Source: Lysobacter sp.
GTDB lineage: Bacteria; Pseudomonadota; Gammaproteobacteria; Xanthomonadales; Xanthomonadaceae
DNA length: 64,000 nt
Assembly: GCA_011526085.1 (NCBI GenBank)
Contig: WYBC01000016.1
Coordinates: 62,001 to 126,000 of the forward strand
Direction: 5' to 3'
Shown here: positions 62,048-64,000 of the stretch, piece after piece
Layout of the letters: each line of letters opens with the position of its first letter
How positions within the stretch are numbered: position 1 is the stretch's first letter
Made by a program: the position numbers and the translations under genes
Notes under the pieces: generated by a model
Told to the model about the DNA's origin: nothing
Databases searched by the model: none
The model's input: only the letters and a program-made list of their open reading frames with translations

Positions 62048-62353
62048 GGAAACATCCTGTTGCAGCGGGAAGAAGGCGTTGCAGCGAGCCCGACATGCTA
62101 ATCCGTCGCAGGGCATCGTGCGCGTGCCCGAGGCCGCAACTGCGACCATGGTCGACGATGCGCCGGACTGCGCTTGAAAAAGCAAGGCACTGCTGATAAC
62201 CATATCGCCAGCGAGCGGCGTCCAGGTGCATAAGCGCCGGGGACGTCGACAGGAGGCTCGCGCAGGTGCCCGGCATCGGAATACCGGGGATGGAAGGGAA
62301 TCCGGTGGCCCACGGCCGCCGACAGTACGGCATTGCCTGTCGTCAGGGGTGGC
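62048..62353. other. Divergent intergenic region
   Basis: 306 bases between the ligase and the haem-reductase fusion gene; no gene seen. Holds both promoters, not resolved. Confidence 0.45.
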
Positions 62354-63937
62354 ATGGACGCGATACCGGTTCGCGAGAATCAGGACCAGAACGATCTGGT
62401 CTGTCATTGCGCGGGCGTCGGCCGCGCACGCATCAAGGCCGCCATCGCCACCGCGCCGGCCTCCACGCTCGAATCCCTCGGCAGCCAGCTCGGCTGCGGC
62501 GTGCACTGCGGCTGCTGCCGGCCGCTGGTGCAGGAACTGCTGGGCGAATCGCCCTGGTACGAAGTCGCGAACGCCACCCGCACCACGCTCACCGACGGGC
62601 GCTTCCCGCAGCGCAGCATCGTGCAGCTGGACCTGCAGCTGGTGGGCTTTCCGCCCTATCCGCAGGCGAAGCCGGCGCAGCACGTGGTGCTGCAGGCGTG
62701 GATCGACGACGCCTGGGTCACGCGCACGTACACGGTGGTGAAGCAGTCCGAGGACGGCAACACGGTCAGCATCGCCATGCGTCGCCTGCCCTACGGCGAA
62801 CTGACGACGCGCCTGCTCGATGCCGACGAAACCATCTTCGCGGCGATCCCGATGCGCATCGCGATCCCGACCGGCGAGGCCGATCCCGGCGACGGCCGGC
62901 CGGTGGTGTGCTTCGCGGCCGGCGTCGGCGTGACGCTCGCGCTGTCGCTGCTCAACGGACGCCAGCCGGGGCAGATGCTGCACGTGGACTACAGCGCGTC
63001 GAACCGCGGCGACATGGTCTACGCCGACCGCATCGAAGCGTCGGCAGCGAGCAGTCGCGAGGTGAGCTGCTGCCTGCGCACCGACGACGTCGACGGCCAT
63101 ATCGACGCCAAGGACATCCTGCAGACGGTGCAGGAGTTCCCCGGCGCGCGTTTCTACGTCTGCGGCCCGCAGGGCTACACCGGCAACGTGGTCGACGGCC
63201 TGCGCGAGGCCGGCGTGCCCGATGCCGACGTGCGGGTGGAAGCGTTCTTCCTGAAATCGCATGCGAAACCGCGGCGCAGCGTGCGCCGGCTCGCGTATGC
63301 CGCCGGCCTGGCGGCGGCTTTCCTGCCGCTGCTGCTGCTGGCGCCGGCGCTGGCGAAGTTCGTCCCGAATGCGGCGCACAATCCGGGCCACGAAGACCTG
63401 GCCTGCGCCGATTGCCATCGCGAAGCCCCGGGCACGATGCGGCAGCAGTTGCAGGCCAAGGCGAAACATCTGCTGGGACTGCGCGGTGATACCGATTTCG
63501 GCATGCGCGCGGTCGGCAACCCGACCTGCATCGGCTGCCACGACAACCCCGACGACCGCCATCCCGCGCATCGTTTCCTGGAGCCGCGATTCGAGGCGGC
63601 ACGACGCAGGCTCGCGCCCGAACAGTGCGTGAGCTGCCATCGCGAACACACCGGCAGCCGCGTGAGCCAGACCGACAGCGGATTCTGCGCGGCCTGCCAC
63701 AGCGACACGAAGGTGAAGGACGACCCCACGACGCCGACCCACGCCGTGCTCTTCAGCGAAGAACGCTGGGATACCTGCCTGACCTGCCACGACTTCCACG
63801 GCAACCACGGCCACGACGCGCCCGACGACCTCGACGACGCGCTGGCGCCGGGCGTCGTCGCCGCCTATCTCAAGAACGCCGATTCGCCCTACGGCGAGAC
63901 CGTCGTGAAAGCCAAGCCGCCGGAGCCCACGCAATGA
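62354..63937 (+). CDS. Fusion protein: BFD-type [2Fe-2S] domain, FAD/NAD reductase, membrane helix, five-haem cytochrome c
   Basis: 527 residues. Residues 14-60 form a bacterioferritin-associated-ferredoxin-like cluster site: Cys17, Cys19, Cys52 and Cys55. Residues 85-300 are a ferredoxin-reductase-like module with flavin motif RTYTV (124-128), GVGVT (190-194) and the CGP pyridine-nucleotide motif (270-272). A basic patch (KPRRSVRR) and one hydrophobic helix (about 314-336) follow. After it come five CxxCH haem sites: Cys351-His355, Cys392-His396, Cys425-His429, Cys445-His449 and Cys475-His479. Positive-inside rule puts reductase in the cytoplasm and haems in the periplasm. It overlaps the next gene by ATGA. 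Confidence 0.9.
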   Translation: MDAIPVRENQDQNDLVCHCAGVGRARIKAAIATAPASTLESLGSQLGCGVHCGCCRPLVQELLGESPWYEVANATRTTLTDGRFPQRSIVQLDLQLVGFPPYPQAKPAQHVVLQAWIDDAWVTRTYTVVKQSEDGNTVSIAMRRLPYGELTTRLLDADETIFAAIPMRIAIPTGEADPGDGRPVVCFAAGVGVTLALSLLNGRQPGQMLHVDYSASNRGDMVYADRIEASAASSREVSCCLRTDDVDGHIDAKDILQTVQEFPGARFYVCGPQGYTGNVVDGLREAGVPDADVRVEAFFLKSHAKPRRSVRRLAYAAGLAAAFLPLLLLAPALAKFVPNAAHNPGHEDLACADCHREAPGTMRQQLQAKAKHLLGLRGDTDFGMRAVGNPTCIGCHDNPDDRHPAHRFLEPRFEAARRRLAPEQCVSCHREHTGSRVSQTDSGFCAACHSDTKVKDDPTTPTHAVLFSEERWDTCLTCHDFHGNHGHDAPDDLDDALAPGVVAAYLKNADSPYGETVVKAKPPEPTQ

Positions 63938-64000
63938 CGCTGCCGAAGATTCCCCGTTCCGTCCTCGCCCTCGCCGCACTGGCCGTGGCCGGCATCTATT
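63934..64000 (+). CDS. Exported protein, N-terminal fragment
   Basis: 22 codons are present before the window ends: MTLPKIPRSVLALAALAVAG, a signal or anchor segment. It starts by an ATGA overlap with the haem-reductase fusion gene, so it is likely a partner, for example a periplasmic electron carrier, but nothing more can be said. Confidence 0.6.
   Translation, partial: MTLPKIPRSVLALAALAVAGIY

Follow-up and report, generated by a model that had tools for sequence, protein, structure and literature searches.

How could electrons from cytoplasmic NAD(P)H reach haems on the far side of the inner membrane, and is one polypeptide enough to carry them there? The question is raised by a gene (gene 1) near the end of a 64,000-nucleotide stretch of Lysobacter sp. 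DNA (the window; G000:C9:62001-126000), which combines an iron-sulphur domain, a flavoreductase, a membrane helix and five haem c sites. The original prediction was that its single chain conducts electrons across the membrane without quinones. Reading was extended past the window end and across other genomes (G numbers) and loci (L numbers), and a different arrangement is now favoured: with a probability of about two in three, gene 1 encodes the cytoplasmic loading arm of an inner-membrane complex made by three genes, and also the haem receiver on its periplasmic side.

Architecture of the fusion protein

Gene 1 lies on the forward strand at 62354..63937 (stop included; 527 amino acids). Its frame is uninterrupted from an ATG at 62354 to a TGA at 63935-63937, and Pfam, NCBIfam and comparison with relatives identify the product as a fusion of BFD, FNR, helix and five-haem parts. 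This order in a single frame had been predicted, with a BFD-type Cys set, FNR-like flavin and nucleotide motifs, one hydrophobic segment behind a basic patch and five CxxCH motifs, and each of these modules was found. The feature had also been drawn through to 64000; gene 1 itself stands, and that end does not, as the last 67 bases are the start of gene 2. Upstream of the operon is a conserved promoter-like block, CTTGAAAA then TAA(C/G)CAT (62173..62205, forward strand), whose columns are invariant in all eight aligned upstream regions, the window included, except for the single C/G column. The CTTGAAAA ... CCAT block might be read as a heat-shock promoter, but its spacing seems too long for that consensus.

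The N-terminal BFD-like [2Fe-2S] domain (residues 15-64; 62396..62545, forward strand) matches Pfam Fer2_BFD PF04324 (37.5 bits, cut-off 26), and its cluster cysteines, C17-x-C19 and C52-x2-C55, agree with membership of the BFD family. It is followed by an FNR-like flavin and nucleotide reductase part at about residues 70-300, with approximate borders (62561..63253, forward strand), which is recognized by an Hmp-like match, motifs, the structure model and a sub-threshold FAD_binding_6 match. The resemblance to flavohaemoprotein Hmp (NCBIfam, E 9.4e-12, residues 103-298) comes with a score far under the model cut-off (44.5 versus 432 bits). In Pfam, FAD_binding_6 is just under its cut-off for the window protein (20.2 versus 21.1 bits) and NAD_binding_1 is not reported; both are above cut-off in relatives L070, L043 and L149. 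The motifs R124-T-Y-T, G190-V-G-V-T and C270-G-P are present, with Leu after GVGVT in the window protein and Pro in L094. In the structure model this part has alpha/beta secondary structure and mostly good local pLDDT; the mean pLDDT of the whole fusion protein is 74, with a poorly modelled haem part and no haems in the model.

Haem domains of the c7/c3 type begin at about residue 346 (Pfam). The five sites, all on the forward strand, are CADCH at residue 351 (63404..63418), CIGCH at 392 (63527..63541), CVSCH at 425 (63626..63640), CAACH at 445 (63686..63700) and CLTCH at 475 (63776..63790), the last being followed by H482 and H485 in DFHGNH. All five CxxCH motifs and six further His are invariant in the alignment of five-haem relatives (48/48), and of 20000 shuffled versions of the gene 1 protein, 5 contained two or more CxxCH motifs. 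Cytochrome_C7 (31.1 bits, cut-off 24.8) and Cytochrom_c3_2 (30.7 bits, cut-off 25) are both above their Pfam cut-offs, as are Paired_CXXCH_1 and Cytochrom_CIII, which places the window protein among multihaem c-type families; NapC/NirT PF03264 falls short for the same protein (12.3 versus 24.1 bits). The sites would be loaded with haem c, presumably with bis-His ligation. When the five-haem profile was compared with solved structures, octahaem nitrite reductase came out best at E 0.0012, followed by NrfA at E 0.0034; these weak matches keep a reading of NrfA-like catalysis alive. That reading is disfavoured by the facts that all five sites are CxxCH, that six extra His are invariant and that no haem is obviously open. 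The same type of search gave no clear match to ActA of alternative complex III, with 6btm chain A at only E 0.67. In another part of the window's genome, at a contig start (G000:C28:45-782), eleven CxxCH codon patterns with fairly regular spacing suggest a repetitive multihaem protein.

A fusion of this kind is open to the objection that separate genes have been joined by an assembly or frame artefact. The first half of the objection holds, as many relatives encode the modules separately (a separate reductase in 24/80 loci). The second half does not, because the reductase-haem join recurs in all 11 genus genomes examined, with relatives 63-80% identical to the window protein; an artefact thus has a negligible probability. 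Eight of the ten other genus genomes have a full-length relative (query 1 to 525-527), among them G003, a single-contig assembly. The relative in G006 spans 79-525, so that a BFD part is not seen; in L040 a contig end cuts this stretch. The one in G009 spans 9-517 at 63% identity with one TAA inside. No full-length match was found in the 48 genomes compared outside the genus, and every complete BFD-type fusion among the genomes and loci examined comes from the window's genus or from a Lysobacteraceae/Lysobacterales record. The fusion is genuine and separate reductase genes exist, so it is seen as part of a wider system.

Membrane topology and partner genes

The model and hydropathy agree on a single membrane helix at residues 308-333 (63275..63352, forward strand) with basic residues at 307-312 (RRSVRR from 307). 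Hydropathy places the main membrane-type segment at about 312-338, together with a marginal second segment at 182-202 that lies within the FNR nucleotide-binding core. Mean K+R in 48 relatives is 3.96 before the helix versus 1.02 after it, a charge pattern that supports the predicted location of the two halves on opposite sides of the membrane, with the reductase in the cytoplasm and the haems outside. The predicted passage of electrons through the chain itself fares worse. The helix is haemless and is therefore not expected to conduct across the membrane; with one helix and no cofactor in gene 1, gene 3 is the likelier carrier.

At the end of the helix, residues 332-334 (63347..63355, forward strand) form an A-x-A that, in comparison with relatives, is a signal-peptidase-like site. 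Its conservation suggests that the chain may be cut behind the helix to give two proteins from a single translation, which would undo the single-chain idea in vivo. The fusion could then be an expression device only, with cleavage leaving a membrane-tethered flavoreductase and a free soluble periplasmic five-haem carrier. We regard this as possible and somewhat doubtful: A-x-A stands right behind a short hydrophobic stretch in 10/10 BFD-type fusions versus 2/73 other five-haem relatives, as such a device would have it, but it is missing from all 14 Bacteroidota fusions and from all 24 proteins with a separate reductase, so release is not family-wide, and a cleaved five-haem form might still operate beside the His-helix protein of gene 3.

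Gene 2 starts with an ATG at 63934 that overlaps the stop of gene 1 (ATGA), and it occupies 63934..64000 of the window and continues to about 64857 (L001:7935-8858, forward strand; 307 amino acids). The next coupled gene had been predicted to encode an exported protein, and translational coupling and an N-terminal hydrophobic stretch agree with that. One CxxCH and a PF11845 match (30.1 bits, cut-off 24.1) identify the product as a monohaem protein of the Tll0287-like (sCache_heme) family. The CxxCH columns are kept in 41/41 relatives, and the alignment of these relatives has no conserved Cys beyond the two of the motif. According to the accessible text of a 2026 preprint (PMC12889525), the Tll0287-type haem domain of a signalling protein binds NO and a stand-alone form seems redox-active; only a general redox role is assigned there to stand-alone sCache_heme proteins.

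Reading the operon beyond 64000, as had been proposed, yielded the continuation of gene 2 and, wholly beyond the window, gene 3 (L001:8855-9385, about 64854-65384 in window numbering, forward strand; 176 amino acids), whose GTG start codon overlaps the stop of gene 2. Gene 3 has no Pfam or NCBIfam match at E 0.01, and a match to its family was found in the window's genome, G000. Its family (alignment A1; L001:8855-9385) is a candidate for a new family entry. Four His in two H-x13-H pairs are invariant in 51/51 relatives, and both pairs are also kept in 12/12 fused forms. In L037 numbering the pairs are H86/H100 in helix 77-101 and H145/H159 in helix 136-166; the copy in the window operon has H94/H108 and H153/H167. 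A model of the last 168 residues of the L037 relative has five long helices at a mean pLDDT of 92.7. Loops 2 and 4 are basic (mean K+R of 2.94 and 1.69, versus 0.80 and 0.20 for loops 1 and 3), which puts the N-terminus inside and the C-terminus outside; in each pair this orientation brings the first His close to the inner face and its partner close to the outer one. Judged from the His spacing, gene 3 is probably a transmembrane wire that would hold two haems b, one at each membrane face.

Gene 3 was also considered as a homologue of ferric reductases or of cytochromes b561, and neither reading was adopted, as sequence and fold searches gave no or weak support. The family has no match among solved structures at E 5 by sequence or at E 0.001 in a Foldseek fold search with the L037-relative model. 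Ferric_reduct PF01794 has no Pfam match to gene 3 and an hhalign probability of 0.06-0.32%; b561-type PF01292 likewise has no Pfam match and a weak hhalign probability of 11-20%, with 0.3-0.4% for the reversed control.

The conserved trio and its proposed wiring

Gene neighbourhoods were surveyed in 80 loci, which are the best 80 of 229 candidates picked by peptide patterns of the gene 1 protein, so the counts are not population frequencies; ORFs in this survey run from stop to stop and some lengths are inflated. On the same strand, a monohaem gene is found near the five-haem gene in 79/80 loci and a His-helix gene 3, free or fused, in 76/80. Three of the four loci without gene 3 hit a contig edge within 143-533 bases, and the fourth, L055, has 3834 bases left. 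Reductases were surveyed as FNR- and BFD-FNR-types within 9 kb, some loci being short. They are fused to the five-haem part in 23 loci (9 BFD-type and 14 ferredoxin-type), separate in 24 and fused to gene 3 in three, and L149 also has a reductase and His-helix fusion. The 14 ferredoxin-type fusions belong to Bacteroidota and carry a C-terminal plant-type ferredoxin motif, Pfam-tested in two of them. No reductase of the types surveyed lies within 9 kb in the remaining 30/80 loci, some of them short, and NAD(P)H therefore cannot be assumed everywhere.

The trio occurs in eight named phyla, as judged from organism names and the tree: Pseudomonadota, Bacteroidota, Gemmatimonadota, Planctomycetota, Chloroflexota, Myxococcota, Campylobacterota and Methylomirabilota. 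It is rare in the window's class, where 5/369 genomes have a full-strength five-haem match (E below 1e-82) and 26/369 have matches at E 1e-10. Both partners are present in 14 of the 15 genomes with a strong five-haem match; the miss is G009, and in G243 the partners are on two contigs. The other 36 genomes have no partner match of comparable strength. Weak His-helix matches were found in five of these 36, one at 3.8e-4 and four at E 1e-9 to 3e-11; each of those four genomes also has a weak five-haem match. Weaker Tll0287-type matches occur in nine of the 36. In two methanotrophs, a protein with formyltransferase and enoyl-CoA hydratase parts, which we take to be HypX/HoxX-like, is encoded upstream of the trio (L054:4931-6979 and L087:5023-6834; Pfam-tested in L054).

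The five-haem tree has 84 rows and a midpoint root for drawing only. BFD-type fusions form one group (100/99), and a branch at 99/89 has them on one side together with L064, L094 and L104. The BFD-type reductase is joined to gene 3 in L064, where it is split over two frames, and in L094, where the BFD part is just under its Pfam cut-off (24.7 versus 26); no reductase was seen in L104. The ferredoxin-type fusions of Bacteroidota are placed elsewhere on the tree. Fusion of the reductase to one partner or the other, depending on lineage, argues that both partners share one electron path.

A sister system with ten haem sites has a comparable composition. Weaker five-haem matches occur in 21 genomes, of which 10 were inspected; an ORF with ten CxxCH motifs is seen in eight of these, the other two being L153 and L155. 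The sister loci, L142-L148 and L152, come from other Gammaproteobacteria (representative coordinates L142:6818-10795, L144:7925-12060, L146:6981-11007 and L148:6981-11083). Each set comprises a decahaem protein, a shorter Tll0287-like protein and a fusion in which FAD/NAD and BFD parts are joined to four-His helices. Both H-x13-H pairs are kept in 8/8 sister fusions, and the FAD/NAD and BFD parts are Pfam-confirmed in both that were tested, L142 and L146. The L142 unit is NirB-like (NCBIfam TIGR02374, E 2.4e-118, under the whole-model cut-off). A globin-like gene lies nearby in most sister loci, Pfam-confirmed in L144 only; the neighbours tested include ANTAR-domain regulators in L146 and L148, an NrtA-like protein in L146 and NapA in L148, and other neighbour names rest on reading N-termini.

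We propose a wiring for the trio that we consider likely. NAD(P)H, as the donor, would reduce the flavin of the gene 1 FNR part, and the BFD [2Fe-2S] cluster would hand single electrons to the b-type haem pair of gene 3. Within gene 3, electrons would move outward from the inner-face His pair to the outer-face His pair, and from these haems b to the five periplasmic haems c of gene 1. The monohaem sCache protein of gene 2 would receive them last and is the probable exit or working site. The gene 1 helix would not itself conduct and would tether both ends of the protein to the haem-b protein, so that the three products assemble into one complex. Given this wiring, a bypass of quinones is plausible. 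Flow could instead be reversed or start from quinol, with the His-helix protein acting as a quinol-type cytochrome b that feeds the five haems and with the reductase as a regulatory part or side entry. The 30 loci in which no reductase was found within 9 kb and the weak b561-type similarity, which exceeds that of the reversed control, are in line with a quinol source; but reductases are fused to either partner in separate lineages, and in the decahaem relatives the four-His helices are joined directly to a NirB-type FAD/NAD and BFD unit. We consider reversal or a quinol source unlikely.

Possible acceptors and comparison with known systems

The role of the trio is most likely to feed cytoplasmic reducing power into a periplasmic reductive or detoxification step. 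In Bacteroidota, representatives of neighbour clusters match NarK, a nitrate-ABC permease and NasA (under cut-offs) and CobA (above its cut-off). A globin is found in 25/80 loci, and a NOR-type gene adjoins L051. Together with the NO-binding Tll0287-type domain, the weak nitrite-reductase matches of the five-haem profile and the neighbours of the decahaem system, these genes make an N-oxide, nitric oxide or another, the acceptor that we favour, with low confidence. Nitrate assimilation is the leading context for lineages other than the window's genus. As a universal role it was rejected: none of the 8 genomes of the window's genus has a PF00042 globin (truncated globins lay outside the search), and 5/8 give a strong molybdopterin match over the full length (E below 1e-69) where G000 gives no such match, so the nitrate link is lineage-bound.

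The acceptor could also be a mineral or a metal (Fe, Cu), either in the periplasm or outside the cell, as in extracellular electron transfer. The multihaem domains are weakly similar to the MtrC and DmsE families, and 20/81 loci contain an ORF family whose representative resembles Alginate_exp, an outer-membrane barrel type, at 23.3 bits against a cut-off of 25.2, which leaves room for electron export further outward. Set against this, nitrogen genes predominate among the neighbours in Bacteroidota and around the decahaem relatives, and no outer-membrane cytochrome partner was noticed, without a dedicated search; we consider metal reduction quite improbable.

Taken more broadly, the trio may represent a new class of quinone-independent NAD(P)H-to-periplasm exporters in at least eight phyla, with a fixed trio, interchangeable flavoreductases, a decahaem sister that uses a NirB half, and NO or N-oxide reduction or disposal in nitrate assimilators. 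This is a tentative proposal, to which we give somewhat less than even odds. If the wiring is true, bacteria of many phyla can push NAD(P)H electrons into periplasmic haems and bypass the quinone pool. Small and modular, the system can be tested in named isolates, for example of Maribacter, Zobellia and Flammeovirga. It contains a membrane family for which the search gave no Pfam or NCBIfam model, and one of the partners belongs to the recently defined haem-Cache family. The original prediction gave no named system with this module order, and none of the family models searched or papers found names the trio or the fusion; a search of full-text literature, with thin coverage of subscription journals, found no description of either.

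Known systems resemble the trio in their parts. NrfB-like, NapC/NirT, MtrC and DmsE cytochromes, as well as NrfA and octahaem nitrite reductase, likewise have multiple CxxCH motifs and give weak profile matches; all Pfam and NCBIfam matches of gene 1 to the NrfB-like, NapC/NirT, MtrC and DmsE models are under curated cut-offs. Gene 1 differs from NrfA, octahaem nitrite reductase and other multihaem cytochromes in having no CxxCK and in its N-terminal flavoreductase fusion. Electron export by multihaem and monohaem proteins has been proposed for a porin-cytochrome cluster of the methanotroph Methylobacter (PMC13322032), which in the accessible text is of the decahaem MtrA type with a porin, and no five-haem or flavoreductase part is named there. 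Gene 2 has PF11845 in common with Tll0287/sCache_heme proteins; the P. putida protein has Cys/His ligation (PMC12889525), whereas the gene 2 family has no such conserved Cys.

The N-terminal half of NirB (FAD/NAD and BFD) places BFD beside an NAD(P)H flavoprotein, as gene 1 does, and the decahaem relative L142 uses a NirB unit; gene 1 differs from NirB in its FNR-type flavin domain and in having no sirohaem half. Outward electron transfer from a flavin by way of two haems b is a known principle; what appears to be new is how the parts are combined, the membrane family itself and the exchange of reductases. NOX, ferric reductases and MsrPQ move electrons outward from NAD(P)H through flavin and two stacked bis-His haems b, and their His pairs are about 13-14 residues apart in helices 3 and 5. 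By analogy with these enzymes, and homology aside, gene 3 may work in the same manner: the arrangement of its His pairs resembles theirs, but profile comparison gave no sequence link to Ferric_reduct, and the trio differs in that a [2Fe-2S] cluster is interposed and electrons would finish in c-type haems.
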